A DNA stretch of 64,000 bases, taken from Daphnia pulex. Lineage: Eukaryota; Arthropoda; Branchiopoda; Diplostraca; Daphniidae. Below, one piece after another: positions 7,341 to 52,950 of this stretch (within the stretch, counting starts at the first letter, position 1; every line of letters starts with the position of its first letter). Where the stretch lies: assembly GCF_021134715.1 (NCBI RefSeq), contig NC_060018.1:1178001-1242000 (forward strand), read 5' to 3'. Position numbers and translations under genes: made by a program. The notes below the pieces were generated by a model. The model saw only the letters and a program-made list of their open reading frames with translations, had not been told where the DNA came from and did no database searches.

Positions 7341-8253
7341 TGGGGGGGATACGCGCGCAATTGTGTTGAGAAGAAGAAACAAGCGGCCAAGCCGAAACGA
7401 CGTTGTCAACAATAGAATGAGAGAGTCTAATACTAGCAGATTGTGAAGTTAAAAAGGGGAAATCATCAGCAGGACCCTCGTCACAGACAGAGAATATCTA
7501 CCAGGCTGGGGGGAAGCCGACGAAAGGTAAAATAACACCCGAGGTTAAGAAGATGAGGTCGGCCTTCGAGTACTACTCACTTTTTCGGGGGGTCTTTTCT
7601 TCATTGCCAGTGTCCTGCTGGAAAAAGACACAAAAGAAATCTGAAAGCACACATACATAGAAATAGAAGGACGCGTCAATATATATTCACTGTGCTCTCT
7701 CTCTGTGTGTGTGGCGGTCTATTAGAAAGGTAAAAAGAATGGAGAACTAGATGCACATAGTCATTGACTTTTTTTCTACCTGAGTTGGTTCTTCCTTTCG
7801 GCAATGAGGAGCTCCTTATTTTTCATTTTTTGAACCTTGCCCAAGAACAACATTTACACTGGAACCTAACCACGGCCGCCACCATCACAGCACCGGGTTG
7901 TCTTCTTTTTCTGGCCTGATGGGGTTTTTCTTTTCTTTTTTGGTTATTTTGTTATTTTTCTTTCCCGCTGAACTGTGTCCTCCCTGCCAAGGTGTATACA
8001 AGTCTAAGCGCATCAGAGTATAGAAGGGGGCGACCCATAAGGATAATCTGTTGTCCTTGGCCGCAAAAACCAACTCTTCAGTGCCATGTGGTTGGTTGGT
8101 TGGCAGAAAAATTCCTCGAGCTGGAAAATACAATCAACTCTTTTTTTCTTATTTCTTGTCGCGTACCATATGTGTGTGTGTGTTTTTCCGGTCTGCTTTT
8201 TCCATTCTTCTCGGGAAAGAAAATATCCATATTGTTTCTCATTTGCTGCTGCT

Positions 8254-8286
8254 GGATGGTGATGGTGATGGTGATGGTGATGGTAG
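8254..8286. repeat. (GGTGAT)n hexanucleotide repeat
   Basis: Five consecutive GGTGAT-type units form a perfect hexanucleotide array. Nearby frames translate it as GD or MV dipeptides, but there is no gene context. Confidence 0.9.
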
Positions 8287-28847: not shown

Positions 28848-31055
28848 AACTGTTGGCTGCCTTGATACACATGATGGTCAATACACATTCTGGAAGATCA
28901 TATTTGCATACCTTACCACATATCCAAAATCAATTCTCTTGTTAAGAGGACTGTTAGTGGTGAGAATGCTCCAGCTGAGGTTAATTTTGGCTGTGTGGTA
29001 AGGTTCTTCATTATTTAATTAATAAGTTTCATTAGTGTTATAAATCGAAAACAATGTGTTTTTCTGGGACTACAGATCAAGTGCTTGATGGGTTGGTTAG
29101 GTTTTCTTTTTTTTTTTTGGTTTGCTACTAGGATGTCCAATGCAAGTGAATGTGGAAGTGGTTCACAATATAGTTAAGATCATTGCATTTATGTCTAGCG
29201 TTGCTATGTTCACTAATGGACGAATTAAAGTTAGTCATTCATTACACAGAAAATGTAAGGTGTTCAGGAAAGAAACTGGAAATGATCGGCCATAAACTTT
29301 GCACTGAACTCGTGACGTGAGCAAATAAATGATAAGGTAAGTTATTTTCAGCAAAATAAAATAATAATGGTCCTTACATTCTGTTTAATTTCCAAAAGGA
29401 AATAAATTTTTATCTTGGCAATCCATTTTATGTCATGTCAAAGCTGATTTAGTTGATCAGTTTAAAAAACACGTAGAAATGGTAACATGGTCTACTCTGT
29501 TATATGCTACTCTCGCTGTATTGCTCGGTGTTATTAGAAATGTATTTAATAAATTAGACAATTTAAGTGAATTATCAAGAGGTTTGTGTATACATTTATG
29601 GGTGTAACGTAACTTAATAGTAAACTGTATAATTTTAACGATTTCTAATGGAGCGATTCATTTCCGTCACGAAATATTATTAGCGGCTTCTTCCATCATT
29701 ATTTAGGACACATCTAAAGCTAGGATTCCGCACTTCCAATTCACATTTGTATCGGAGCACTGGCTTAATAGATCCCAATTTCCAAAAAATTTACTTATCG
29801 CAATCTGGTCGATGTCGATCTTGAAAATTATGAGCCGTTACCCCGACCCACTTCCCCTCCTATAACATTGTTATCCCAATGCTGTTCTACAACTAAAGCG
29901 CTACGCAAAATCTAAATGACAAAGGTTGAAGCTGAATAGTGTGACGATTGCATATGTTTAAAGAGTAGTTAACTTGTAGTTACCTCGAATCCGAACGTTT
30001 ATTACAAAGGTCGTTTCTACGTTAAACTGAAAAGACGAGAATACGTTGTTACTGACAAGTGAAAACATTGGGAATTTCGATGGTGCCGTCTGCAATGCAT
30101 CGAGTGAAGCAGTGCAAACTGGACAGTAGTAAACAGGATTTAGGGCTTTAGGCCTATTCAATGGCTGACGAGTTACGATTTTTAGAAGAAATAAAGTAAA
30201 TTTATATCAATTTCAATATAGTTATGTAGGATACTCTCGAGTGCTATGTGATTATTTCCCCTTTTATCCTGGATCAGGTGATTCAGGAGTAGGATCTTCA
30301 ACATTCTCATTGAAAAAAAAATTCTTTCAGTAAAAGTCTTTCGGTTGTCTTATACTCTCTTTGTAATTTTATTACAGAAAGGATAAAATGAATATTTCCT
30401 GCTATAATGGAAAACAATGTACTGAAAACTGAACGGAAACGAAAAGAGAACTGAAAAGTGTAATGCCTACAACTCGGCCACAAGTGAGTAGATTAAATTA
30501 TAAATATGAATATTTAAATAATGTGTTGATAGGTAAATAAAAGTATGGTTATAGGTTGTAAAGTACATGATTTGAATATATAAATGATATAGTATTAAGT
30601 TAACAGATAGTTTGGTTAGATATGGCAACCGTAGAACTCCAAAGACAGAAGAACTCCACCGACAATAGAACCCAAATATTTTAAATAATTTTTAAAAATT
30701 TCTTTGTATGCGACAGTAGAACTCCAGAGACATAAGAACTCCTTTTTTAAATATTATTAAAATACCCGAAAATATTATTAAAATACATCATTAAAATTTT
30801 CTTTAACTTTAGCGATAAAAAAAGTGACCCCCCATACCCCCCAATCTCATCAGATTTATTTGTATGTGATGTGTATCTGATTATTCATTTCTCGTGAGTC
30901 GTGATGTTAAGCTTCGGAAACAGAGTTCGGAAAGCAATCCGTTCCGTAGCATAGCCTACTTCTACGAATCTACTCTTCAGGCTATGTTCCGTAGTCAACC
31001 GTGGTAATCGTGAGGGAACTTTAGGCTGTCCGCTGTCGGTAGGTGGCTAAAATGG
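28848..31055. other. AT-rich non-coding stretch after RpS15A
   Basis: No conserved gene. AATAAA at about 29325 could end a long RpS15A 3'UTR. A 42-codon frame at 29479-29607 (MVTWSTLLYATLAVLLGV...) encodes one hydrophobic segment but matches nothing I know. Around 30629-30742 two diverged copies of a unit with GTAGAACTCC and GAACTCC lie about 85 bp apart. Otherwise nothing is seen. Confidence 0.55.
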
Positions 31056-31710
31056 ATTGTCCCCCCATCCACCAGGTGACGCGAGTGTCTTCGTGTGGAA
31101 GAAATATTTGCCATTTGTTTCCGAGACGCTGACTGAAAGTGTATTGTATTCCAAATTCAATTCATTGCGGAATTGAGGTGTCGGATCTACATTTTCAGCC
31201 AAATGTAATTGGTAATGCTACTTTGGATTTCCTAAATATAATCAATCTTTGACGTCTCTGTCTGAATTTACAGGCAATCTGGCATATAATTACACTTGGC
31301 CAAATGTGATAACGGGTCGAAACTGCTGTCCATTCTCGGAATTTTGTCGAAATGTCGACCATTGTTAGCTGTATGGCTCATGTCGTGCAGAAACACTTCA
31401 AAGCTAGTAAAGTAATTTTCTTGATCAATTTCCCTGCAATAATGCAATAGGTTTTATTGGTTGATTTTCAGGTCGGAGATGGAGATCCCTTTGCTCAACT
31501 GTTGCAGAAATTGAGAACATGACAAAGTCTGAGCTTCTCAGCTTCAAGGATGTTGTATCTTTAATGTGGTTTTGTTGCAGCCAGCTGGTGAGAAAGATGT
31601 GTTTGAGTCGAGTTGAGCTGCAGGCAGTTTATCGAGCTGGTGTTATCCCAAGTGTCACTGCAGGAAAACTTCTTGAATTGGCAATTTGATATTATTGGTT
31701 GTAACTTGGG
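31056..31710 (+). other. Candidate short spliced transcript (peptide or ncRNA), copy 1
   Basis: The layout parallels a unit inside the inverted repeat (38985-39620). Shared landmarks in the same order are a CCACCAGGT..CGCGAGTGTCTTC block (31069), an acceptor-like AATTTACAG (31275), a short frame starting ATG at 31352, a donor with GTAATT at 31412, an acceptor TTTTCAG at 31471, and a TTGTTGCAGCCA..TGGTGA block (31574). The two exons 31352-31411 and 31472-31522 join in frame over a 60-bp intron to a 36-residue peptide (MSTIVSCMAHVVQKH...). It has no known domain and could equally be a non-coding RNA. Confidence 0.3.
31143..31235 (+). repeat. Outlying 93-bp inverted match to 43045-43137
   Basis: The reverse complement of 43045-43137 reads through this segment without a visible mismatch. 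The match ends at TTTCCTAA on both sides; after that the left sequence runs into unrelated DNA while the right sequence continues into the outer end of the large palindrome. It marks the former outer extent of the inverted duplication. Confidence 0.85.
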
Positions 31711-33132
31711 AAGTCTTGTTTGTTTTGTTTTTTAAGTTTTGTGTTCAACTGACAAGTTTAACTCTTATGTGATGTAGACAATTAAGGGTAATAATTTGTC
31801 CTCCCAAATAATTGTTTCTTCAAAAGATAGTTATACATTGTTGGTCAGCTTTCACTGAGTTAGCGATTTCCTTCCAATCAAACTAGAACAAAAATTCCCA
31901 CTCAGTATTACCAAGTTTATAACACATTGGAAGTAGATGTACAGAATTCTTTTCTGGTTTCTTTTCCAATTCAAATCAATTGTTAACTTTAAATTAAGTA
32001 AATTTTATTATCAGTACCCTTTTTCACATTTCATATAGTTTCATTAATGTTCTTTTGCTTTGTAGGAGTTCATGGTCAGTTTGAGCTGTTTGTTGTGTTG
32101 CTGTTTTGGTGTACAGTGGTTTTGCAGTCCCTTTCCAGTTGAGAGATGCTCTGAAATGGAGCTTGTGCAGACTTGCAGTTCAACATCACACTTAAATGTG
32201 TCATTTGCCTATGTTGGTGTCCATGCAGTATATGCATTGTTGAACAGTTGGTTAAAATAGTCTATGCTGCCTGATGGCTGTCGGTCTTATTTTATCGGTT
32301 GCATTTGGCGATAATCGTCTCTTGCTACCTGTACCGGCGTTGAGGTAATGCTTGATGTTTCTTTCAGTTATTAACTTTTAATTAAAGTCTCTATTCTTTT
32401 TCAGTTGAATCGTTTGCTGCCGTTCCATAGACTTGATCCCTTGGTAAAACTGAGGAGAGGTTGCTGAAATTCAAGACTCGTCAATAAACTATCTAGATGT
32501 AGACAAATTACAGGTGCATATCTGGGCTCCCTTCTTCAGTGGCCCCGTTTCCCTAAATAACCACTAACCAACGCCCGCCGGTGGTCACTCACTCGCTGCG
32601 ACAGACCAGGAGGAAGGGAGATGTTTGGTCGAACGAGGACTTGCAAGGCGCATGATTCGATGAAATCTGTTGAAGGGTCATGAGTCTAGCCGGAAGCCTA
32701 CTATGATGCATTGCTCTCATAATAACTGCTATTCAGCTCTCTTCGCTCTTTTTCCGGGTTCTCTAAACCACGGCCGGGTAATCTCCCTGGTAGAGTCAGT
32801 CGGGCAGTGTCTCCCCCTGCTTGACTGGCTGCAGTTTTTACCGGACGGTTTGTTTAATAAATAAAACAAGTATAAAAAACCATATAATGTCATTTTATAA
32901 ATTGTTATTCATTAATTAAATATATATAGATAACAACTTGATTAACAAGCATAAATATACAACATTGTTTATTAAACAGACCGTCCGGTACAAACTCTTA
33001 GTTAGTACTATTGCTCAAAAACTGATTCTCTTGAATCAGCAGACTCGAGAGTTTATAGCGCCTTCAAGGTAGATATTTCTGAATGGTACCCGTCTTGTCA
33101 ACTGCTAATGATTCATGTTCTTGGTTTGACAG
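31711..33132. other. Left-only non-coding DNA
   Basis: Part of the segment missing from the right arm. Several acceptor-like pyrimidine/AG sites (for example 32067 and 32402) hint at spliced RNA, but no frame is convincing. It also contains a GC-richer stretch (32520-32840) and the MITE candidate listed separately. Confidence 0.5.
32841..32988. mobile_element. MITE candidate with 20-bp terminal inverted repeats and TA flanks
   Basis: CCGGACGGTTTGTTTAATAA at the left end (from 32841) is mirrored by the sequence ending ACCGTCCGG at 32988, with one mismatch in about 21 bp. Both ends are flanked by TA, the target duplication of Tc1/mariner elements. The roughly 106-bp AT-rich interior has no coding capacity. 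A short hairpin of other origin is possible. Confidence 0.5.
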
Positions 33133-33653
33133 AAGCTGTGTTGTGTTTGTTGATCGTCTCCACCATGCACGCGATAATCAAGACCAGCAAGCAGCAACGT
33201 CTTGATCAAGAAGAAGAAAAGAACGGAGAAGCAAAGAACGACGATGTAAATAGCGGGGTGGGTACCGCTAAATTCATTCTTAGTTGAATGTCGAATCGCT
33301 AATACCATTGTTGGTTATGGTAGAACAGTTTTCCATACTGGTACGCTGTATGACGTCGAGCATTGCCAAAATGGAAGTGCTCTTTGAAGAACTGAGCGTC
33401 TAAATCTTCTTCAGTCAGATGAAGCTAACGGATTCGGAAATCGTCGAAGAAGCAGAGGACATCACAGCTGAAAAAAAAAACGTGAGTCAAACTCCTGTGG
33501 TTAAGTTCTGCAGCTACTCTCAAAATATTTTGTCTTGTTTGCTCGTGTTGATTGTAGACTGCTTTTAAATTATCTATCAGTGAAGCCCTAATAAGAGGTC
33601 CAAGAGAAATTTATTCGGGTCAACTGATACCATACCACGTACTAAATCGTTAA
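33133..33653 (+). CDS. Candidate small spliced gene, unknown function (3' part)
   Basis: Three segments join in frame through good splice sites: 33133-33245 (acceptor GACAG, donor GAT/GTAAAT), 33419-33481 (acceptor GTCAG, donor GTGAGT) and 33558-33653 (acceptor TTGTAG, stop TAA), with introns of 173 and 76 bp. The first exon enters with two bases of a codon and reads a hydrophobic run (AVLCLLIVS) before CCACC-ATG at 33165. Then come basic (KTSKQQR) and strongly acidic stretches (EEEKNGE, EIVEEAEDITAE), and the protein ends YHVLNR. From the ATG this gives 79 residues. The layout suggests a single-pass membrane protein tail, but no family is recognised and upstream exons are not established. 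Chance alignment of splice sites cannot be excluded. Confidence 0.3.
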
Positions 33654-34276
33654 TGGTTTTCAGGTAAAAAATAACCATGAGAATATGGGGTCGCAGAAAT
33701 AGATGTCAACTGGTGGAAAATAAGAAGGTGATACGGTATTTCTCTTTTCTTTTTTAAAAATACTGTCTGATTTTTAAAGATTTGGTGAGGAACATCCAAT
33801 CTGTCGATCGCGGTCGCTAACCAATTGGTAGAAAAACAGCACCAATAATGGTAAGAAGGTGTGCTGTGAAGTGGCGTGATAATTTTAATCATGGACATGG
33901 ACATTCAGGTTTCATTTCGTTTTTTTGTCAGGTCGAACTCGGATGTGCTTTATTCGAGATTTTAACACAAATTGCATTTTATCATCAATTATGATTCTTA
34001 AAGGTGATGGCTTGGCTAAACTTTCGACGGTTAAACTCTTTTAATAAATAGATAATATAACATTGAGCTAATGATCTTGCATTCTTGACTAAATCTTTTC
34101 AGGCAACTTTTGAAGTTTTTGTGGGCACTGATTTGCAGAGTACTCGTGACCAACAGATAAAATGGCCCAATTGCAAATTTGCAAGCTGTCTTCAAAAACC
34201 AAGGAATTTCTATTTGCAAGGTAATTATTTCAACCAATGTTTCTTTTTATTACTGTGGTAATAATTCAAGATAATG
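33654..34276. other. Left-only non-coding DNA before the palindrome
   Basis: AT-rich, no supported gene, and absent from the mirrored right side. Confidence 0.5.
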
Positions 34277-34367
34277 AAGTCTAATTAGGTAGAAAACCTT
34301 TCTCTGAAAAGTTTAGGAACCATTGTTAATTTGAATTGGTATAAAGTGAGTTTTAAGCCATAATCAT

Positions 34368-34690
34368 TTGGTATTAATTTTTATATTGGTTGTTGTAGAC
34401 CCATTCCAATCCCCAGCAACGTAAACCTGCAGAAGAAAAGGCACGTAAAACTTGTCATGCAGTGGTGTAGAGGTTGGGTGAGAATGGGATGTGTTTCATA
34501 ACCATTTGGTATTCATTTTGATATTGGTTGTTGTAGACCCATCCCCAGCAACGACAACCTGCAAAAGGAAAGGTACGTAAAACTTGTCAAAAAGAGGTTG
34601 GGTGAGAACGGGATGTGTTACATAACCATTTGGTATTCATTTTGATATTGGTTGTTGTAGACCCATCCCCAGAAACTTCAACCTGCAAAA
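34368..34690 (+). repeat. Three tandem copies of a ~125-138 bp unit
   Basis: TTGGTTGTTGTAGACCCA recurs at about 34386, 34524 and 34647, each preceded by TTTGGTATT and followed by CCCCAG..AAC and CCTGCA. Two copies continue into AAAACTTGTC and GGTTGGGTGAGAA. The array sits directly upstream of the TATA box of the first pseudogene and is mirrored at about 42631-42953. Confidence 0.85.
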
Positions 34691-34856
34691 GGAAAGGGCA
34701 GTCTGCCTGTCCTTCACATTCGAAGGTCACGGAGATCATTACATAAAACGTGCCATGCAGTGGTGTAGAGGTTGGGTGAGAACGGGACGTGTTTCATCAT
34801 TTTCAAGTAGCTACAATAGCCGCAAGGCTTAAAAGGTGAGGGTGATCAAAAAATCG

Positions 34857-34893
34857 TATAAAAGGAGAGAGAAAAGGCGAAGGTAAATCAGTC
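34857..34893 (+). promoter_or_regulatory. TATA box and TCAGTC initiator of tyrosine-rich pseudogene A
   Basis: TATAAAAG starts at 34857 and TCAGTC at 34888, with the initiator A at 34890. That spacing (33 bp) is nearly ideal for an arthropod core promoter. About 60 bp of leader precede the ATG at 34951. The mirrored copy lies at 42428-42464. Confidence 0.65.
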
Positions 34894-34950
34894 GAGGGAG
34901 CATCTCCGACACGGCAACAACTGCAGCGCTCTGTCTGTCATTTCGCATCC

Positions 34951-35900
34951 ATGGGTAAATATTCTGTCTTTTACATAGAGTTTGGTTTCAATCCTTCTTT
35001 TTATTTGTTTATGTATGCCTGTTATTATGTAATATTTATGTTAAAATTTATAATTGTCTAGCAAACTATGGCGTAGTGCTGCTGTTGTGTGTTGAATCAT
35101 TGATGGCTGGGTCGACCACTGGTTTACCGATGTCTTCTTGGTATGTCGGATACTAAACCGCAACGCCGCCGCCTTACTACCCAAAAGCAACTTACGCAAC
35201 GACCAGTTACTGCACCGAGGTCTTCAAGTACTACACCACTAAAGCACCGGACTTGAATAGCACAATTTACGCTGCCCCGAGCCACTACACTGACGCCCTG
35301 AAGTATTACTCTGCCCCGAGTTACTACTCCACCAAGGCGACGGATGATGACTACGCATGCTGCCCCATCCTCCGAGGCTCATACACCGAGGCTCCTAAGT
35401 ATTACAATCTTCTCATCTACTTATTGCACCGATTTTCCTAAATACTACTCTGTTCCCAGCTGCTACACCAAGGCTCCCGCTGATTTCTACACCGAAGCGG
35501 CAAAGTACTACTCTGCCCCGATCTACACAACGATAAATGAGGCGGCCAAGTGTTACGCTGTCCCGACTTACTGCACAGAAGCTGCTCTTTCGTACTACGT
35601 TGAACAGGAATACTACACTGATGCTCCAGTTCACTACACCACGACCTAGGCTACACCGCAGCCCCCAAGTACTACACCGAAGAAGCCGCCTATAACAACG
35701 TATGCTGCCTAGTTTACTACACCGAGGCTCCCAAGTACTAAATCACTAAGGCACCGGAATTCTACACGTCTGTGTAAGCTACCCCTGCCTACTACACCGA
35801 GGCCCCGCATTACTACAACACTGAAGCGCTCAAGTACTACACTACAACCTGCGCTTCCCCGAGCTACTACACCTACGTCCCGAAGTATTACTGTGCGTAA
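34951..35900 (+). pseudogene. Tyrosine-rich repetitive secreted protein, pseudogene A
   Basis: Exon 1 is only ATGG (34951-34954). The intron runs to 35061, and exon 2 supplies a signal peptide (NYGVVLLLCVESLMAG). The body is an irregular repeat built from YYT/YYS, EAPK, TTKAP and YAAPS words, typical of extracellular structural proteins; cuticle or egg-case material is a guess. It is broken by a TAA at 35154-35156 (where the repeat grammar expects CAA), frame changes near 35360-35405, a TAG at about 35647 and later stops. The intact promoter and splice sites suggest recent decay. The same lesions occur in the right arm. Confidence 0.7.
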
Positions 35901-35990
35901 AAAGAGTCTTCAAAAAAAAAAGAAGTGCCCGAACTGCAGTGCCCTATCTGTCACCAACTGCTTTCCTCATCGTGTAACCGATTCGCAATC

Positions 35991-36782
35991 ATGGGTAAAT
36001 ATTCTTATTTTTACATTGAGTTTTGTATCAATTAGATTTTTTTCTATTTGTTAATATGCCTGTTAATATTTAATATTAATGTTTCAATTTATTTTTGTTT
36101 AGTCAACTATGGCGTCGTGCTCCTGTTGGGTGTTGCATAGTTGATGACTGGGTTGACTGCAGGTGTAGCGATGTCTCCTTGGTATGGCGGAAATCAAACC
36201 GCAACGTCGCCGCCTTTCCTACACAACTAAAGCAACAACAGTTCCTGCGCCGATGTCTTCAAGTACTACACCACCAAAGCACCGGAGTTTTATACCACAA
36301 CTTACGCTGCCCCGAGCCACTACACTGATGCCCTGAAGTATTACTCTCCCTGAGTTACTACTCCATCTAGGTGACGGAGTACTACATGACTACGCATGCT
36401 GCCACATCCTACTACACCGAGGCTTCTAAGTATTACTCTGTTCTCAGCTACTTATTGCACCGATTTTCCTAAATGCTACTCTGTTCCCAGCTGCTACACC
36501 GAGGCTCCCGCTGATGTCTCCACCAAGACGGTTGAGTACTACACCGAAGCGGCAAAGTACTTCTCTGCCCCGATCTACACAACCACAACTGAGGCGGCCA
36601 AGTATTACGCAGTCCCGACTTGCTACACAAAAGCCGCTCTTTCGTGCTACGTTGAACAGAAATACTACACTGATGCTCCAGTCTACTACACCACGACCTA
36701 CGCTACACCTAGCTTCAACACTGCAGCCCCCAAGTACTACACCGAAGAAGCCGCCTATTACACAACTACGTACGCTGCCTAG
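35991..36782 (+). pseudogene. Tyrosine-rich repetitive secreted protein, pseudogene B
   Basis: Tandem paralogue of A with the same ATGG first exon (35991-35994) and an intron to 36102. Exon 2 begins with the NYGVVLLL signal peptide, which is broken by TAG at 36138-36140. Further stops and frameshifts fall near 36352-36390. The longest intact stretch (36396-36782) keeps the YYTEA/APTCYT/TTTYAA pattern and ends at TAG. The leader resembles that of A (ACTGCAG..CTGTC), but no TATA box is evident in the 90 bp upstream. Confidence 0.7.
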
Positions 36783-38580
36783 TTTACTACATCGACGAAT
36801 TTAAGTATTGCCCTGCTCCAAACTACCAAAATTAGGTTCATATGTATTGCAATTTTCATTACTATATTACCTGCTCCGACCTAAACACCTAAGTTCTGAA
36901 GTATTTCTCTGTATTTGTGAAAGATTGCTGAAATACAAGATTTAATGATAGATCACATGTTTCTATTATCTCGTTAAATACCTTCTCCTGCTGATAATTG
37001 CATGATGTGAGAATATTTCTGAGTGCTATGTTAACTTACAAATAATTGATCTTGCCAAATACACTGATAAAAATTCAAACTCTTATATTTTTACATTTCA
37101 ATAATATTTAAACTCCTTTTTATAAATTCTTTTCTATCATTAAAATTCTAAGTCCAACGAACTATTTTATTAAAAATGCAAATCCACCACCCAATTATTT
37201 CTGCTAAGTCCAGACTTTTGTTTTTGAAAAAAAATTTAAAAAAATTCCCCTTACACGAAATTTTAAAAAATTTTATCGCGAAAAAGATTGATACGAATAT
37301 TTTATTGCATACAAAATTTATTTTTATAACATTTTACATACATCATATACATTTTTCCTGTGGCCCCCAGGGGGGGGGGGGCCTGTCGCTTTCTCTACCG
37401 CGATAATAACATGATGCAAGTTATATGCAAGTTATTATTTGTTTGGTGCAGAAAGCTTGTTTTATCTAGCAGTTCTCAACTGTTTCAAACCTGACATTGA
37501 TCAGGTTGCCTCAGTCGTATACTGCATGATTGAATGAAACTCAAAAGACAACAGATCAAACTTTTAACGCAGCAACACAAAATATCAATGGCAGAGCAAT
37601 TTCATATGGCATGGATGAAAACACAAACACAAAAATGTTAAAGTCAGGAACCCAGATGCCACAGCTCCGCTACAACAGCACAGCAACTTCTGGATTACAC
37701 TACAACTGCATGCTGCATACAAAGGCTCAATCTGTCTTCGTCACACCTTTCACCATTTGGCTGCAACAAGGTAACCACCAGCGTTTAAGAAGTGTTTGTT
37801 GTACCTGTTAAAGAAAAGAAAATTATTTTCGAGAAACACAACTGTGTACACATGCATACTCATTATAACAAAAGAATACAAAGAGTAACAGAAAACTACG
37901 CAGTCCAACAGAACAACTTTGATATCTGATTCAAAATTTCTATAGTAGCAGAGCAAATTGGTCTACTCTCTAGTCATGTTAACTAAATCTGTAGTACTTT
38001 GGCAAGACATTTTATCAAAATAATTACTTTTTCGTGTTGAATGGGGTGAGACGTAAGCCAAAAAACAGGCAGCGAGACACACGAGGCACGCCATTTCGGA
38101 AAAGTACAGGCACTTTCCAAGTCTGAGTAGAATGATTTGGCAAATTGGTTTCTACATGCTATATCACCTGTAAATTTTCACATCAACATTTTACATTCAT
38201 TAACAATAGGAAATTAACAATAAATACCTTTTAATTTTCATCGTGAGGAGCGTGACAACCGACAACCTACTTCAGCTGCGTCTTGGAACAAAATGGCCGC
38301 TGAACGTCCCTGAAGACACTCGCGCTACCTGGTGGACATCATACAGTTGGGGTGTCAGAGATGTCCAACAGATGTCATAGGCGTCGTTGTTTTCATGTGA
38401 TGGCGGATTGTTGTGTTGAGTGATTGTCAAAAGTTTTCCTATTTCTTCATGAAAATTACCGATGAATTCATCAGTAAATTCAAGTTCTTTTCTTTGCAAC
38501 TTGTTTGTGATGTGATTTATTCCTTATGTGTGCTGGATCAAATTCAAAATTCAGGTCCTAGGAAGGAACGGGACAGGAAA

Positions 38581-38738
38581 TTGATTATTGTTGATTGATT
38601 GCAGGATTTGATAGATTGTATTTTCTCTCATAGGTAAAGCTATGAAAAATATCATATCATCTAGGTCATGGGTAATCTTCTGGTTTATTATATTAATAGA
38701 GTTTGTGGAAGTGATGCTAGGCTACTTGTATGCTACTG
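38581..38738. other. Loop (spacer) of the large inverted repeat
   Basis: 158 bp of AT-rich single-copy sequence between the arms. The innermost paired block is AGGAACGGGACAGGAAA at 38564-38580 and its complement at 38739-38755. Confidence 0.85.
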
Positions 38739-38984
38739 TTTCCTGTCCCGTTCCTACAGGTTAGATTGAGGAATTTTGAATTTGATCCAGCACACCTAAG
38801 GAATAAATCACATCACAAACAAGTTGCAAAGAAAAGAACTTGAATTTACTGATGAATTCATCGGTAATTTTCATGAAGAAATAGGAAAACTTTTGACAAT
38901 CACTCAACACAACAATCCGCCATCACATGAAAACAACGACGCCTATGACATCTGTTGGACATCTCTGACACCCCAACTGTATGA

Positions 38985-39620
38985 TGTCCACCAGGTAGCG
39001 CGAGTGTCTTCAGGGACGTTCAGCGGCCATTTTGTTCCAAGACGCAGCTGAAGTAGGTTGTCGGTTGTCACGCTCCTCACGATGAAAATTAAAAGGTATT
39101 TATTGTTAATTTCCTATTGTTAATGAATGTAAAATGTTGATGTGAAAATTTACAGGTGATATAGCATGTAGAAACCAATTTGCCAAATCATTCTACTCAG
39201 ACTTGGAAAGTGCCTGTACTTTTCCGAAATGGCGTGCCTCGTGTGTCTCGCTGCCTGTTTTTTGGCTTACGTCTCACCCCATTCAACACGAAAAAGTAAT
39301 TATTTTGATAAAATGTCTTGCCAAAGTACTACAGATTTAGTTAACATGACTAGAGAGTAGACCAATTTGCTCTGCTACTATAGAAATTTTGAATCAGATA
39401 TCAAAGTTGTTCTGTTGGACTGCGTAGTTTTCTGTTACTCTTTGTATTCTTTTGTTATAATGAGTATGCATGTGTACACAGTTGTGTTTCTCGAAAATAA
39501 TTTTCTTTTCTTTAACAGGTACAACAAACACTTCTTAAACGCTGGTGGTTACCTTGTTGCAGCCAAATGGTGAAAGGTGTGACGAAGACAGATTGAGCCT
39601 TTGTATGCAGCATGCAGTTG
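38985..39620 (+). other. Candidate short spliced transcript, copy 2 (mirrored at 37703-38337)
   Basis: Same landmark order as the unit at 31056-31710: CCACCAGGTAGCGCGAGTGTCTTC (38990), AATTTACAG (39155), ATG at 39229, donor GTAATT at 39296, acceptor TTTAACAG (39518), then CCTTGTTGCAGCCAAATGGTGA. Joining 39229-39295 to 39519-39538 gives a 28-residue peptide beginning MACLVCLAACFL, unlike that of copy 1. Conservation of splice landmarks without conservation of the peptide favours a non-coding RNA, or decay. Confidence 0.3.
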
Positions 39621-40538
39621 TAGTGTAATCCAGAAGTTGCTGTGCTGTTGTAGCGGAGCTGTGGCATCTGGGTTCCTGACTTTAACATTTTTGTGTTTGT
39701 GTTTTCATCCATGCCATATGAAATTGCTCTGCCATTGATATTTTGTGTTGCTGCGTTAAAAGTTTGATCTGTTGTCTTTTGAGTTTCATTCAATCATGCA
39801 GTATACGACTGAGGCAACCTGATCAATGTCAGGTTTGAAACAGTTGAGAACTGCTAGATAAAACAAGCTTTCTGCACCAAACAAATAATAACTTGCATAT
39901 AACTTGCATCATGTTATTATCGCGGTAGAGAAAGCGACAGGCCCCCCCCCCTGGGGGCCACAGGAAAAATGTATATGATGTATGTAAAATGTTATAAAAA
40001 TAAATTTTGTATGCAATAAAATATTCGTATCAATCTTTTTCGCGATAAAATTTTTTAAAATTTCGTGTAAGGGGAATTTTTTTAAATTTTTTTTCAAAAA
40101 CAAAAGTCTGGACTTAGCAGAAATAATTGGGTGGTGGATTTGCATTTTTAATAAAATAGTTCGTTGGACTTAGAATTTTAATGATAGAAAAGAATTTATA
40201 AAAAGGAGTTTAAATATTATTGAAATGTAAAAATATAAGAGTTTGAATTTTTATCAGTGTATTTGGCAAGATCAATTATTTGTAAGTTAACATAGCACTC
40301 AGAAATATTCTCACATCATGCAATTATCAGCAGGAGAAGGTATTTAACGAGATAATAGAAACATGTGATCTATCATTAAATCTTGTATTTCAGCAATCTT
40401 TCACAAATACAGAGAAATACTTCAGAACTTAGGTGTTTAGGTCGGAGCAGGTAATATAGTAATGAAAATTGCAATACATATGAACCTAATTTTGGTAGTT
40501 TGGAGCAGGGCAATACTTAAATTCGTCGATGTAGTAAA

Positions 40539-41330
40539 CTAGGCAGCGTACGTAGTTGTGTAATAGGCGGCTTCTTCGGTGTAGTACTTGGGGGCTGCAG
40601 TGTTGAAGCTAGGTGTAGCGTAGGTCGTGGTGTAGTAGACTGGAGCATCAGTGTAGTATTTCTGTTCAACGTAGCACGAAAGAGCGGCTTTTGTGTAGCA
40701 AGTCGGGACTGCGTAATACTTGGCCGCCTCAGTTGTGGTTGTGTAGATCGGGGCAGAGAAGTACTTTGCCGCTTCGGTGTAGTACTCAACCGTCTTGGTG
40801 GAGACATCAGCGGGAGCCTCGGTGTAGCAGCTGGGAACAGAGTAGCATTTAGGAAAATCGGTGCAATAAGTAGCTGAGAACAGAGTAATACTTAGAAGCC
40901 TCGGTGTAGTAGGATGTGGCAGCATGCGTAGTCATGTAGTACTCCGTCACCTAGATGGAGTAGTAACTCAGGGAGAGTAATACTTCAGGGCATCAGTGTA
41001 GTGGCTCGGGGCAGCGTAAGTTGTGGTATAAAACTCCGGTGCTTTGGTGGTGTAGTACTTGAAGACATCGGCGCAGGAACTGTTGTTGCTTTAGTTGTGT
41101 AGGAAAGGCGGCGACGTTGCGGTTTGATTTCCGCCATACCAAGGAGACATCGCTACACCTGCAGTCAACCCAGTCATCAACTATGCAACACCCAACAGGA
41201 GCACGACGCCATAGTTGACTAAACAAAAATAAATTGAAACATTAATATTAAATATTAACAGGCATATTAACAAATAGAAAAAAATCTAATTGATACAAAA
41301 CTCAATGTAAAAATAAGAATATTTACCCAT
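40539..41330 (-). pseudogene. Tyrosine-rich pseudogene B', mirror copy
   Basis: Reverse complement of pseudogene B, including the in-frame stop in the signal peptide and the same frameshifts. It is convergent with its left-arm twin. Confidence 0.7.
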
Positions 41331-41420
41331 GATTGCGAATCGGTTACACGATGAGGAAAGCAGTTGGTGACAGATAGGGCACTGCAGTTCGGGCACTTCT
41401 TTTTTTTTTGAAGACTCTTT

Positions 41421-42370
41421 TTACGCACAGTAATACTTCGGGACGTAGGTGTAGTAGCTCGGGGAAGCGCAGGTTGTAGTGTAGTACTTGAGCGCTTCAG
41501 TGTTGTAGTAATGCGGGGCCTCGGTGTAGTAGGCAGGGGTAGCTTACACAGACGTGTAGAATTCCGGTGCCTTAGTGATTTAGTACTTGGGAGCCTCGGT
41601 GTAGTAAACTAGGCAGCATACGTTGTTATAGGCGGCTTCTTCGGTGTAGTACTTGGGGGCTGCGGTGTAGCCTAGGTCGTGGTGTAGTGAACTGGAGCAT
41701 CAGTGTAGTATTCCTGTTCAACGTAGTACGAAAGAGCAGCTTCTGTGCAGTAAGTCGGGACAGCGTAACACTTGGCCGCCTCATTTATCGTTGTGTAGAT
41801 CGGGACAGAGTAGTACTTTGCCGCTTCGGTGTAGAAATCAGCGGGAGCCTTGGTGTAGCAGCTGGGAACAGAGTAGTATTTAGGAAAATCGGTGCAATAA
41901 GTAGATGAGAAGATTGTAATACTTAGGAGCCTCGGTGTATGAGCCTCGGAGGATGGGGCAGCATGCGTAGTCATCATCCGTCGCCTTGGTGGAGTAGTAA
42001 CTCGGGGCAGAGTAATACTTCAGGGCGTCAGTGTAGTGGCTCGGGGCAGCGTAAATTGTGCTATTCAAGTCCGGTGCTTTAGTGGTGTAGTACTTGAAGA
42101 CCTCGGTGCAGTAACTGGTCGTTGCGTAAGTTGCTTTTGGGTAGTAAGGCGGCGGCGTTGCGGTTTAGTATCCGACATACCAAGAAGACATCGGTAAACC
42201 AGTGGTCGACCCAGCCATCAATGATTCAACACACAACAGCAGCACTACGCCATAGTTTGCTAGACAATTATAAATTTTAACATAAATATTACATAATAAC
42301 AGGCATACATAAACAAATAAAAAGAAGGATTGAAACCAAACTCTATGTAAAAGACAGAATATTTACCCAT
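41421..42370 (-). pseudogene. Tyrosine-rich pseudogene A', mirror copy
   Basis: Reverse complement of pseudogene A. It keeps the same nonsense codon after the signal peptide and differs at 41805 (Ala to Val in the repeat). The ATG is at 42370, behind the mirrored TATA and initiator. Confidence 0.7.
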
Positions 42371-42427
42371 GGATGCGAAATGACAGACAGAGCGCTGCAG
42401 TTGTTGCCGTGTCGGAGATGCTCCCTC

Positions 42428-42464
42428 GACTGATTTACCTTCGCCTTTTCTCTCTCCTTTTATA
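42428..42464 (-). promoter_or_regulatory. TATA box and initiator of pseudogene A'
   Basis: Mirror of 34857-34893: the TATA begins at 42464 on the minus strand and the initiator A is at 42431. Confidence 0.6.
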
Positions 42465-43044
42465 CGATTTTTTGATCACCCTCACCTTTTAAGCCTTGCG
42501 GCTATTGTAGCTACTTGAAAATGATGAAACACGTCCCGTTCTCACCCAACCTCTACACCACTGCATGGCACGTTTTATGTAATGATCTCCGTGACCTTCG
42601 AATGTGAAGGACAGGCAGACTGCCCTTTCCTTTTGCAGGTTGAAGTTTCTGGGGATGGGTCTACAACAACCAATATCAAAATGAATACCAAATGGTTATG
42701 TAACACATCCCGTTCTCACCCAACCTCTTTTTGACAAGTTTTACGTGCCTTTCCTTTTGCAGGTTGTCGTTGCTGGGGATGGGTCTACAACAACCAATAT
42801 CAAAATGAATACCAAATGATTATGAAACACATCCCATTCTCACCCAACCTCTACACCACTGCATGACAAGTTTTACGTTCCTTTCCTTCTGCAGGTTTAC
42901 GTTGCTGGGGATTGGAATGGGTCTACAACAACCAATATAAAAATTAATACCAAATGATTATGGCTTAAAACTCACTTTATACCAATTCAAATTAACAATG
43001 GTTCCTAAACTTTTCAGAGAAAGGTTTTCTACCTAATTAGACTT

Positions 43045-43137
43045 TTAGGAAATCCAAAGTAGCATTACCAATTACATTTGGCTGAAAATGTAGATCCGAC
43101 ACCTCAATTCCGCAATGAATTGAATTTGGAATACAAT
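43045..43137 (-). repeat. 93-bp inverted match to 31143-31235
   Basis: Joined directly to the right arm. The junction TTTCCTAA/AAGTCT shares two or three A with both parental sequences, as expected for microhomology-mediated joining. Confidence 0.85.
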
Positions 43138-43437: not shown

Positions 43438-45425
43438 ATGTCTTCTAAAGAAAACACAGTTTCAGTGGGGCTGTTGACAGGTAACCAGAGTTGGAACTAT
43501 TTTTACCTTCTGTCTTTTTAATTTAAAATTTTGTAATTTAACTTTCTTGTAAATTTACCTTCAATTATTTATGGGCAGTCAGTGATCGTTGCTTCCAAGG
43601 ACTGACTACGGACACCAGCGGAGCCTGCGTGCGCAACTTGATTAATGAGGGTTCTCATCTAAAAGCCACCGTCATAGTTGAAGATTGCGTCCCTGATGAA
43701 ATGGATGCCATACACACCATACTTACCAAATGGTGTGATGAGTTAAATGTCAATTTGATCTTCACTCTAGGAGGAACAGGTTTTTCACCAAGAGATGTAA
43801 CACCAGAAGCAACTAAGACTATCATTGAAAGAGATGCTCCTGGACTCAGCTTGGCTATGATTAAGGCATCACTTGATATTACTCCTTTTGCTATGCTTTC
43901 CAGGCCTGTTTGTGGCATTAGAAAACAGAGTCTTATTATCAATTTACCTGGAAGTCCTAAGGCTGTAAAGGAATGTTTTCATATAGTATCCCCATCTTTG
44001 CAACATGCAGTAGATTTAATAACTGGAAGAAAAGAAGTTGCCGAAACTCATAAGAAGATGCAGTCTAGTGAAGCAGCTCCTATTAAAGAACATCATCATT
44101 CCTGCAGCCATCATCAATCAAGAAATCTTGAAGCAGTTGCATTCCGTCCAAGACATTCAAATTTTCCAATGATCAGTGTTAAAGAAGCACAAAACATCGT
44201 TTTTAATCATTGCAACATAATAGGATATGAAACAATTGATTACATGGAAAGCGTGGGACGTGTTTTGGCTGCGGATGTCTTCTCTACTGATCCTCTTCCT
44301 CCTTTTCCAGCTTCGATGAAAGATGGTTATGCTGTCATAGCTGCTGATGGCCAAGGTACAAGACAAGTAATTGGTGCGTCAATAGCCGGTTCACAGCCGG
44401 CAGAAGTAAATGTTGAAAGCGGTTTCTGTGCCAGGATCAGCACAGGTGCCCCTTTACCACCAGGAGCAGATTCTGTTGTTATGGTCGAGGATACAAAACT
44501 GATTTTGGCTTCTGAAGATGGCAGTGAAGAATTTCAAATCGAAATAATGGCTTCAGTCAAGCATGGTCAAGAGATTCGTCCAATTGGTTGCGATATCAAA
44601 GAAGGAGAAATCGTACTAGAGCAAGGAACTATTCTAACTCCTACAGATGTAGGAATTCTTGCCACAGTTGGACAAACGAAAATCAAAGTCTACGCTTTAC
44701 CAATCTTGGCCGTACTGTCCACTGGCAATGAATTACAAGAGAGTCAAGCCGACTTGCAACGTGGACGCATCCGGGATAGTAACCGACCAGCATTATTGAG
44801 TTTTCTAAAGCAACAAGGATTTCCTGTCGTCGACGCTGGGATAGCCGAAGACCATCCAGAGGCACTCTATCAACGCATTAACGCGGCCTTTGAAAAGGCA
44901 GATGTCCTAGTCTCTACAGGAGGAGTTTCTATGGGGGAGATGGATTTACTTCGCCATGTTTTAGTCAACAAATTCGGAGCCGTTGTCCATTTTGGTCGTG
45001 TAGATATGAAACCTGGGAAACCAACCACTTTTGCTTCTTGTGAGCACAATGGAAAGAAAAAATTTGTCTTTGCCTTACCAGGTAATCCTGTTTCGGCCAT
45101 AGTGACATGTCATCTCTACGTCATTCCAGCTTGTAGAAAATTGTCTGGTCGCAAACGATATCTTCCCACCACGATAAAGGCAGAATTGTCGAGTTCCACT
45201 GGCTATATTCCTCTCGATTTTCGACCAGAATACCATCGCGTGAATGTTCAGTGGCATCACGAGAAATCTATTCCGTATGCCATGTCCACTGGAAATCAAC
45301 AAAGCAGTCGTCTTCTAAGTATGAATCGGGCTAACGGACTAGCAATTTTGCCTTCCAAAACAACAGAAATGTCAAGTATTTCTAATGGAACAATTGTGGA
45401 TGTAATTGTGATCGATCAATTATAA
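43438..45425 (+). CDS. Gephyrin/cinnamon: molybdenum cofactor synthesis (MogA-MoeA fusion)
   Basis: Adenylates molybdopterin (G domain) and inserts molybdate (E domain) in the last steps of molybdenum cofactor synthesis; in vertebrates also a synaptic scaffold. Two coding exons, 43438-43480 and 43579-45425 (1890 nt, 629 aa; Drosophila cinnamon about 600, human gephyrin 736). The N-terminal MogA-like domain has VSDRCFQG, LGGTGFSPRDVTPEAT and LPGSPKAV. A short His-rich linker (HHHSCSHHQ) follows. The MoeA-like domain has PLPPFPASMKDGYA, STGAPLPPGADSVVMVED, STGNEL, STGGVSMGEMD, GRVDMKPGKPTTF and LPGNPVSA. The short linker suggests the metabolic arthropod form, without the long vertebrate scaffold region. 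Almost the whole protein lies in one exon. AATAAA is near 45447. Confidence 0.96.
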
Positions 45426-45484: not shown

Positions 45485-46858
45485 TTACTCGGTTTGAGTT
45501 ATGTATTTTGAACTGTAATACTTAACGCCATTGATGTTTGAAGATCTTGCGTACTTTGTCAGCAATGCTGCAACATTCAGATTATTATCAGTCAGTGGCC
45601 TGGAAAAGGTAGAAAAAAAATACATAAATAAATAATGAAAATTTTACTTTTTTGCATTTTGAAAAAATTAAATTAGGTATAAACATACTGGACATAAGGT
45701 GTAATAGCTTGTAAGGTCCATTTCGTCCTGTTACGAAACAAAATGTCCAATCGTTCGTTGATATCCTCTGGTAATTCGAACTCGGGTAAATATTTAACTA
45801 ACGAAGGAGTTGAATCGTAGTCAACAAGGGCGACGCCGTTTAAATCTTCTTCGTTTGCCGTCACTCCCACTGGCATTGACTGTTGCCAGGCGGTGAAAAA
45901 GTCTTTGCTATCAAATGCTCTTAATTCCGGCAAGAGATACAGAGCAAATAATTGAGAGACAGCTGCAGATTTCCACTTGAGACTATCATCATCCACTTCC
46001 ATGAAGAGCGACATGCATTTAGAATTGACGTCGGCAATATCGTACAACCCCATCCAATCTTCAACATTAAGGGGTGTTACTTCTTCTAGGCTAAGTTGTT
46101 TCTCCCTTAGTATGGAATCTAGGTATGAAACCCAACCAAATAAAAAGCCAACATCTAGCAATCGCCACTTCCCTCTTATTTTAGCTGCAGGAATTTCTTC
46201 AAGACGATTGATGATTTCCTCTTCACTTGCTTGGATAATATTTTTTAGTTCTGTAAAAGATAACCCAACAGCATCTTTACTTAATTCAGAATTTTTCCCT
46301 TTATAAGGATATTTGGCTAAAGCATTTCTGAGTGATTGAAGCTTTGGTTTGGTAAGCCTCATCTCATAGTAAGTGTGATAGACACCAAAAACCTAAACAT
46401 ATGGTAAAAGAAAAAGGTATAAGTTAATGTATCAAAATTGCAAAGAGGATATTTACTTCTTGTTTTTTCAGAGTCCTTGATTCAGTTGCTTCAATAAGCT
46501 TTCCATGGTTCAGTGATGGCATAAGAAGCAAACTATTTGATGTCTCGGCTTCTTTAAATTCAAATGTTTTGGAATTGCTACATACTACAACGTGAGCATC
46601 TTCACCACCTTTTATAAACAGACTTTCACAATGATAAGTAACATTAAGAAATAGATTTAGAAATGTTTCAAGTGTATGTTACCATTCACCACTCTTGATA
46701 TACTCCAGTGTGTCTTTATTCACTTCTAATAACTTCACTTGCTTTGAGTCTAAAATCTGGGGAATGAATTGCAAAACATGACTTTCTTTTTTTATATCGG
46801 ACTCTGTTAATTTTGCCAAGTTTAAAATTGTATTGACTTGTTGAAGAGTTCTTTCCAT
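45485..46858 (-). CDS. DSCC1: Sister chromatid cohesion protein DCC1
   Basis: Subunit of the Ctf18-RFC clamp loader that links replication to cohesion. Four coding exons: 46858-46683, 46622-46457, 46392-45689 and 45599-45485 (1161 nt, 386 aa; human 393 aa). Matches to the family include the N-terminal NTILNLAKLTES and EVNKDTLEYIKSGE, SNSLLLMPS, VFGVYHTYYEMRLTKPKL, IIQASEEEI, the C-terminal winged-helix region WQQSMPVG and LNGVALVDYDS, and ALLTKYARSS near the end. Its stop lies 59 bp from the gephyrin stop, so the two 3'UTRs must overlap on opposite strands. Confidence 0.94.
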
Positions 46859-50865: not shown

Positions 50866-52950
50866 TTAATCAACTTCTTCAATGGTTGGGCCACCAGCTC
50901 CACCACGGGGAGGAGCACCTCCAGCGGCTCCTGGCATACCACCAGGCATTCCTCCTGGCGGTGCTCCACCGGCTGCGTACAACTTGGTGATGATGGGCTT
51001 GCAAACTCCTTCAATTTCCTTGAGCTTGTGCTCAAATTCTTCTTTATCGGCAAGCTGATTAGCGTCCAGCCACTTGATAGCTTCGCTGCATTTGTCCAAC
51101 ACGGTCTGGCGATCAGACTCCGGAATCTTATCCTTGACCTTGTCATCTTCCATTGTCTGCTTCATGTTAAAGCAATAAGATTCGAGAGCATTCTTGGCCG
51201 ATACTCGTTCACGCTGCTTCTCATCTTCATCACGGTACTTGTCGGCATCGTTGACCATGCGCTCGATCTCTTCCTTCGACAGACGACCCTTGTCGTTTGT
51301 AATCGTGATCTTGTTTTCGCGACCAGTTGATTTGTCGGCAGCAGTCACGTTCAAGATACCGTTAGCATCGATATCGAAGGTAACTTCAATCTGGGGAACA
51401 CCTCGTGGTGCGGGAGGGATTCCAGTCAATTCGAATTTTCCCAGCAGATTGTTGTCCTTGGTCATCGCTCGTTCTCCTTCGTACACCTGGATCAGCACAC
51501 CGGGTTGATTGTCAGCATAGGTGGTGAAAACCTGAGTTTGCTTTGTCGGAATGGTGGTGTTTCGCTTGATGAGGGATGTCATCACACCGCCTGCAGTTTC
51601 AATGCCCAAGGATAGAGGAGCAACGTCGAGCAGCAGCAGATCTTGAACAGCCTCAGACTTGTCTCCGTGAAGGATAGCAGCTTGGACTGCAGCGCCATAG
51701 GCGACAGCTTCATCAGGGTTGATAGACTTGTTCAACTCCTTTCCGTTGAAGAAATCTTGCAACATCTTCTGAATCTTGGGAATACGAGTTGAACCTCCGA
51801 CCAGAACGATTTCGTGAATTTGAGCCTTGTCCATCTTGGCATCACGAAGGGCCTTTTCTACAGGTTCCAAGGTTCCGCGGAAAAGATCGGCGCAAAGTTC
51901 TTCAAAACGAGCCCTCGTAATGCTGGTGTAGAAGTCGATACCCTCAAAGAGCGAGTCGATCTCAATTGAGGCCTGGCTGGAAGAAGAAAGCGTTCGCTTA
52001 GCACGCTCGCAAGCTGTGCGAAGACGACGAAGAGCTCGTGGGTTGGATGACAGATCCTTCTTGTGTTTTCGGTTGAATTCTTGTACAAAGTGGTTGACCA
52101 TTCGGTTGTCAAAATCTTCACCACCCAAATGAGTATCTCCAGCTGTAGACTTGACCTCGAAAATTCCTTCCTCAATGGTGAGCATGGAAACATCGAAGGT
52201 ACCGCCTCCAAGATCGAAGATCAGGACATGGCGTTCGCCAGTGACCTTTTTATCAAGACCTATAGAATAAATAAGAAAAGATAAATATCTCATCCTTCCT
52301 GTTAAATATGAAGCATTAAATTCCATACCATAAGCAATAGCTGCAGCAGTGGGCTCGTTGATGATGCGAAGGACATTCAAGCCTGAAATAGTTCCAGCAT
52401 CTTTTGTTGCCTGACGTTGGGAATCGTTGAAGTAGGCAGGAACAGTGATGACAGCATCCGTCACCTTCTGTCCAAGATAAGCTTCGGCTGTTTCCTTCAT
52501 CTTCACAAGCACCATAGACGAGACCTCTTCCGGTGAGAAAGTTTTGGTTTCGCCCTTGTATTCAACCTGGATTTTCGGCTTTCCTCCATCGCTAACCACT
52601 TTGAAAGGCCAATGCTTCATATCGCTCTGAACGCAAGCATCTTCAAAACGACGACCGATCAAACGTTTGGCATCTATCAATAAAATCAGAACGGTTAGAA
52701 CATGAATTTGAAATGAGTATGGAGAAAATCAATTAATCTTACCAAAAACTGTGTTGATTGGGTTCATGGCAACCTGATTTTTAGCGGCATCTCCAATCAA
52801 ACGTTCAGTATCGGTAAAGGCAACATACGATGGAGTTGTACGGTTGCCCTGGTCGTTGGCGATAATCTCCACTTTACCATGTTGGAATACTCCTACACAT
52901 GAGTAGGTAGTACCCAGATCAATACCAATGCAGGGTGCTTTCTTGGCCAT
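50866..52950 (-). CDS. Hsc70: Cytosolic heat shock cognate 70 (HSPA8-type chaperone)
   Basis: ATP-driven chaperone of the cytosol and nucleus. Three coding exons: 52950-52743, 52673-52329 and 52259-50866 (1947 nt, 648 aa), plus a 5'UTR exon ending at 53081 (intron 52953-53080). All three Hsp70 signatures are present: [27 protein letters not shown] and [14 protein letters not shown], with the linker [14 protein letters not shown]. The C-terminus has [13 protein letters not shown] repeats and ends in EEVD, the anchor for TPR co-chaperones, which places it in the cytosol. Introns inside the coding region are typical of constitutive cognates rather than intronless stress-induced Hsp70 genes. The start MAKKAPC sits eight bases behind the UTR acceptor. 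Confidence 0.97.

Follow-up and report, generated by a model that had tools for sequence, protein, structure and literature searches.

How does a genome come to carry an 8.8-kb palindrome whose two arms scarcely differ, and what keeps them alike? The question is raised by a stretch of 64,000 nucleotides of the Daphnia pulex genome (contig NC_060018.1, positions 1,178,001 to 1,242,000), referred to here as the window and numbered from its first letter. An earlier note, made from the sequence alone, had described the palindrome at 34277-43044 and had offered two explanations of its symmetry, a recent inverted duplication at this site or arm-to-arm homogenisation. We consider it quite probable that the palindrome in the window belongs to a dispersed family of such structures, which would have spread as a unit, presumably in the manner of a fold-back element, with arms homogenised site by site, a right arm that was later truncated in this copy, and a noncoding block that has been conserved.

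The 8.8-kb palindrome is real. When the window was compared with itself by BLASTN and its arms were aligned with MAFFT, the proximal part of the left arm (34277-38552, forward strand) was found to pair with the right arm (38771-43044, reverse strand) at 99.81% identity over 4,276 columns, a match (E = 0) far above chance level, which bears out the near-perfect palindrome with a 158-bp loop that had been described. Column by column, the arms differ by six substitutions (34436, 34442, 34502, 34574, 35516 and 38527), one more than the five noticed by eye, and by a sole indel of 2 bp in a G run of 12 versus 10 (37370-37371), which had been read correctly. Four of the six substitutions cluster, as had also been seen, in an outer 124-bp tandem repeat (34359-34697, forward strand, with its mate at 42624-42962). 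Paired coordinates had been said to add up to a constant; they do so on either side of the G run, with one value outside it (77321) and another inside (77323). The inner limits of the earlier note, 38580 and 38739, do bound a perfect 17-bp inverted repeat (38564-38580 and 38739-38755) enclosing the loop (38581-38738), but this repeat is set apart from the long arms by a patch in which the two sides, 11 bp (38553-38563) and 15 bp (38756-38770) long, do not match. Patch, repeat and loop form the centre (38553-38770). Pairing restarts, unnoticed in the earlier note, outside the right arm, where 43044-43137 (reverse strand), the outer remnant of that arm, is the reverse complement of 31143-31236 (forward strand) over 94 bp at 100%. 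The 3,040 bp at 31237-34276 (forward strand) belong to the left arm and have no counterpart in the right one.

Is this arrangement peculiar to one locus? A search of the genome (133,188,837 bases in 13 contigs) with an arm segment, covering the best 40 of 654 candidates, returned 72 matches, many of which form convergent pairs that score equally and are separated by 3-7 kb. From these, 25 stretches of 10 kb around matches were fetched, together with a 7.5-kb stretch surrounding a central segment, and 14 of the 26 loci proved to be palindromic (designated L009-L021 and L034), with L030 among the other 12 retaining part of a second arm. This share is a biased estimate, because 13 of the stretches were picked for already showing a pair. 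Long inverted repeats make up the bulk of the element, with aligned arms of 3.0 to at least 4.9 kb in 15 palindromes, the window included. Genome-wide, a conserved 32-mer, taken from the noncoding block described below, occurs at 103 sites with up to three mismatches (48 forward, 55 reverse), its reversed control at 0 + 0, and a second motif, a 39-mer, at 102 sites; among the 100 sites listed for the 32-mer, 82 match perfectly and 18 with a single mismatch. When these 100 sites and three found only in the 39-mer list were merged within 8 kb, they gave 78 loci on 11 contigs, namely 25 convergent pairs and 53 single sites, with no divergent and no direct pairs. This is the dispersed, multi-copy distribution of fold-back transposons and others with long terminal inverted repeats (TIRs). 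Two of the single copies, L022 and L028, look like deletion derivatives of palindromes, and L028 has inverted ends of 1,138 bp at 99.7% identity. A viral or prokaryotic source was considered and rejected, since exact matching of the 32-mer against viral contigs and prokaryote genomes gave 0 matches. We found no description of this palindrome family in the open-access literature of PubMed Central (PMC), subscription papers lying outside that scope, and the excerpted text of a palindrome survey in parthenogens names D. pulex as one of those for which screening was not possible (PMC7953838).

The loci are also unevenly placed. They are confined to limited domains (for example 1.26-6.10 Mb on contig C4 and 6.99-11.42 Mb on C5), and no two neighbours are 8-58 kb apart, although uniform placement inside the occupied ranges (64 gaps on six contigs) would give an expectation of 11.0 such gaps; the count fell to zero in 0 of 20,000 simulations. 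This spacing could be explained by selection that disfavours ectopic recombination among copies lying close together. Among the sites listed for contigs C1-C12, none falls on C6.

The age of the organisation can be read from the centres. Those of the window and L020 are 96.7% identical over 390 bp including the loop, and those of L018 and L019 99.5% over 221 bp, the latter two belonging to a second centre group (L010, L014, L017, L018 and L019). The longer centres of L012, L016 and L034 combine stretches of both types, and L011 has an inner segment, though not the loop, in common with the window. Because centres are homologous between chromosomes, the palindrome was inherited as a unit and predates the divergence between its arms. 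The inner arm segment at 38347-38552 (forward strand, mate 38771-38976) stands in both arms of the window and L020 and on one side only of L034 and L011. The window's right-arm version of the inner-edge heterology recurs in L020, L034, L011 and, with one difference, L012, so that the left-arm patch is the derived one. A small transposon inserted at the central 17-bp repeat was considered and rejected, as the L020 palindrome continues through that repeat.

If the palindrome is old, how have its arms remained so similar? By BLAST, arm identity in the 15 palindromes ranges from 96.8% (L010) to 99.98% (L014) and is at least 99.5% in 11 of them, the others being L034 (97.7%), L009 (98.7%) and L016 (99.1%); for L015 the largest of several pieces was used. 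A 1.1-kb arm segment (36800-37930) was compared across 14 palindromes, after L030, L033 and the right arm of L013 had been left out as too short. Within a copy the two arms diverge by 0-1.7%, without a single left/right substitution in nine of the 14, and the nearest other copy is 1.2-7.6% away; between copies the median is 8.4% (727 pairs). In a FastTree phylogeny the left and right arms form cherries in 13 of the 14 palindromes (nine with printed support of at least 0.986, four without a printed value). Arms of one copy are thus closer to each other than to arms of other copies, as in palindromes that undergo gene conversion. The arms evolve in concert within copies, and the homogenisation raised in the earlier note finds stronger support than the window by itself could offer, now in a family with homologous centres; the agent is most likely arm-to-arm gene conversion or fold-back repair. 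The arms of L020, at about 36450-37850, mostly resemble those of L016 and L026, and its centre resembles the window's. Since the genealogies of arm and centre differ, exchange between dispersed copies is suggested.

The window copy has a history of its own. Parts of 31237-34276 are present in other family members, and at C1:4668981, C1:5229670 and C3:9730859 the segment 32500-33700 occurs on either side of the palindrome. Because of this distribution, the 3,040 bp were most likely deleted from the right arm. The converse, that the left arm had gained the stretch as a 3-kb insertion, was rejected on the same grounds.

What else has been kept in these arms? A noncoding block of about 190 bp (37355-37545 in the left arm, reverse strand; 39778-39966 in the right arm, forward strand) is near-invariant in arms that otherwise differ between copies by the median given above. 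Across 23 copies, taking one arm each, excluding the G run and dropping the two most diverged copies, variable sites in the block number 11 singletons and 7 shared out of 178, whereas the noncoding arm that flanks it has 204 and 302 out of 1,295 (Fisher 4e-4 for singletons, 1e-11 for shared sites). The block is selectively conserved, and probably represents a structured RNA or a cis-acting DNA site. Its predicted folding gives z = -5.1 on the reverse strand and -3.5 on the forward. In an alignment of 31 of 39 sequences (37 fetched and two from the window, with eight second arms left out), the predicted consensus consists of a hairpin, a hinge, a second hairpin and a tail (37380-37536 in the left arm, reverse strand), with ACA in 31 of 31 and the hinge AUAAAACA in 24 of 31. 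H/ACA small nucleolar RNAs have two hairpins joined by a hinge with the H box (ANANNA) and an ACA near the 3' end. The predicted fold, with boxes read by eye, has this layout. Rfam gave no match to the block at gathering score; four matches at E 1-3.6 all fell below it, none of them H/ACA. Double compensation was seen in none of 44 stem pairs, and the changed cells, gaps aside, comprise 23 that keep a pair and 5 that break one. Because the first predicted hairpin has small internal loops only, it would suit a guide RNA poorly and a microRNA-like stem better. We call the block H/ACA-like rather than an H/ACA RNA proper. A more far-reaching proposal can be built on it: the dispersed palindromes may each carry a new gene for a structured noncoding RNA, H/ACA-like and present in about 100 copies, with arm homogenisation keeping that gene working, loci spaced at least about 58 kb apart in certain domains, and the palindromic form itself preserving the gene as the remainder of the arm degenerates. 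We regard this as a tentative idea that is unlikely to hold.

The sequence of events that we favour would run as follows. A palindromic unit, consisting of an arm of up to about 7.3 kb, a short centre and an inverted arm, would have spread whole over many chromosomes, most likely as a non-autonomous element of fold-back type, and at each site, as the tree shows, its arms are kept near-identical, most likely by gene conversion or fold-back repair. In the window copy the right arm would then have been shortened, with 3,040 bp and its outer end gone, and the left arm slightly rearranged at its inner edge. The tandem genes of this copy are broken, and the 190-bp block, probably a structured RNA or cis-acting site, is selectively conserved. 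By analogy, the family behaves like a fold-back element with homogenised arms.

Several observations weigh against this account. Its mode of dispersal is one that we infer, because the copies have yielded no common terminus (among the few ends fetched, the limits differ between the window, L022, L028 and the C1, C2 and C3 copies), no target-site duplication among the same few ends, and no transposase domain in five open reading frames (ORFs) drawn singly from five of the fetched loci. One of the five, which adjoins the family copy in L029 (8509-9999), has a Phage_integrase (tyrosine recombinase) domain and is taken for a presumably unrelated mobile element. The motif occurs once only at all 28 of the C4 loci in the motif census, and at one of these the mirror position lacks the conserved block. 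The arms of L010 are not sisters in the tree, where L010 groups with L009, even though the distance between its own two arms is marginally the smaller (1.73% vs 1.91%), and those of L034 differ at 50 substitutions in 3,014 columns. Short-read polishing of the assembly could over-homogenise arms, and repeated re-formation of the second arm would yield a similar tree.

That last process is a rival in its own right. A single-arm copy, made up of a centre and one arm, would fold back and copy its arm during transposition or repair, so that the second arm is formed anew each time; the scenario overlaps with the one that we favour except in the homogenising process. In its favour are the 53 of 78 loci with the motif once, the combination of shared centres with young arms, and the inner segment present on both sides in the window and L020 and on one side in L034 and L011. 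However, continuing conversion would equally suit the range of arm divergence in the 1.1-kb segment and the concentration of differences within the tandem repeat, and the single copies L022 and L028 have the appearance of deletion derivatives. We consider re-formation quite unlikely. Somewhat unlikely, though more plausible, is the view that no transposon is involved at all and that a host gene cluster gave rise, through segmental duplication, to copies which ectopic recombination spread and which were homogenised where they lay; it differs from the favoured account in the mode of spread alone. The ragged limits, the missing target duplication, the lack of transposase in the ORFs tested, the gene pair in the arms and the mosaic ancestry of L020 are all what such duplications would leave, but dispersal over 11 contigs and derivatives with inverted ends such as L028 are more element-like.

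The two remaining explanations are both very improbable. A single recent inverted duplication at the window locus, in which identity reflects recency, would account for the mere six substitutions between the arms and for the identical outer 94 bp. That proposal of the earlier note had to be given up: L020, on another chromosome, is the same palindrome with a homologous centre, the organisation including the centre is common to copies on other chromosomes, and there are 25 convergent pairs genome-wide. An assembly artefact, through fold-back reads or polishing, might be suspected from the 12/10 homopolymer difference, and long palindromes are in general difficult to assemble. The argument already made against a simple fold-back is strengthened by the 25 convergent pairs at separate places, by the 3-kb deletion specific to the right arm and by the derived inner edge.

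How does this family compare with known systems? Arm-to-arm conversion is best known from sex chromosomes. The palindromes of the human Y chromosome are much larger than those of Daphnia, lie on a sex chromosome and do not form a dispersed family. What they share with the Daphnia copies is the near-identity of the arms, maintained in the human case above 99.9% by arm-to-arm gene conversion (PMC3723533; this and the following papers are cited from excerpts). In Caenorhabditis, inverted repeats with paralogous gene pairs, such as one locus with 2,207-bp arms, a 126-bp spacer and 99.7% identity, are likewise long and near-perfect, keep their symmetry better than their sequence and have been attributed to gene conversion; unlike the Daphnia copies, they are described in the excerpt as gene pairs at individual loci rather than as a dispersed family, and a conserved RNA-like block does not figure there (PMC1803023). 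Closer in its distribution is Galileo, a Foldback-like long-TIR transposon of Drosophila with TIRs of 18 bp to about 1.26 kb and 95.2% TIR identity in the copy with the longest ones. It too is dispersed, has long inverted repeats whose length varies through internal tandem repeats, and includes chimeric copies (one central region with different ends) and many copies without transposase (PMC3573991). In contrast, the Daphnia arms exceed 4 kb and contain gene remnants and a conserved noncoding block, and neither transposase nor target duplication was identified in the five ORFs and few ends available. The Tm1 Mutator/Foldback elements of root-knot nematodes share the fold-back type of inverted repeat and include a non-coding class with a conserved hairpin motif; their hairpin class is about 0.9 kb long and mostly has target duplications of 9 bp, and within one Tm1 element the TIRs average 93.15% identity to each other (PMC3169594). 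The Daphnia arms are longer and more identical, and a duplication was not found among the few ends fetched. Comprising no fewer than 25 palindromes that share an origin and are spread over many chromosomes, the family amounts to a set of replicated natural experiments on how palindromes originate, spread, keep their symmetry and die, in a genus for which mutation-accumulation lines and measured conversion rates exist (PMC12926508, excerpt), and its conserved block can be tested directly as a candidate RNA or cis element of a new, multi-copy kind.

The arms also carry the remains of genes. Each contains an internal tandem duplication (34942-35725 and 35982-36795, 82% identity) that corresponds to two decayed gene copies, the first at approximately 34951-35900 (forward strand, mate at about 41421-42370 on the reverse) with Tyr/Thr-rich repeats and a broken frame, and the second, about 82% identical to it, at 35991-36830 (forward strand, mate at about 40491-41330 on the reverse). 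Judged by eye, these tandem genes would encode Tyr/Thr/Pro-rich repeats behind a signal-peptide-like start, and in the window copy they are broken by stops and frameshifts. In the fetched loci, ORFs of at least 140 amino acids resemble fragments or expanded repeats. A 129-amino-acid query for the repeat protein, itself only a fragment, has at least 152 matches in the genome, many of them open throughout (150 of 959 candidates scored); no complete gene that could be an intact progenitor was demonstrated among the matches listed from these, and Pfam gave no family above cut-off. The neighbouring ORFs at 43629-45425, 45673-46362 and 50866-52680 belong to a MoeA/gephyrin-like gene, a Dcc1 gene and an HSP70, respectively, and right-arm pairing stops at 43137, about 300 bp short of the first ATG read upstream of the gephyrin-like ORF. 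At the locus, ARAGORN predicted no tRNA and Rfam gave no match reaching gathering score.

Smaller features accompany the arms and their limits. The outermost family-related sequence of the left arm (30826-31142, forward strand) has no mate on the right side. A short repeat, TCCACCAGGTGACGCGAGTGTCTTC, lies near both limits of the arm unit (31068-31092, forward strand, with an inverted copy at 38312-38336, 92%); motifs like TCCACCAGGTGGCG at these two places and in L038 face inward near both arm-unit limits and also occur elsewhere, and they are similar to the CTCF core motif. A widespread short repeat with GACAGTAGAACTCC units (30621-30774), also seen in L011, L016, L028 and L032 and next to the C3 copy, stands directly outside the left arm. 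The first part of the 32500-33700 query, 32500-32865, has copies of its own, because 16 of the best 40 scored matches cover that part only; it looks like a separate small element within the arm, and a 32-bp inverted repeat is found at 32833-32996. In L015 (C1:5229670), a 20-bp tandem array at 1728-2080 is mirrored at about 7920-8508, its length being unequal between the two arms.

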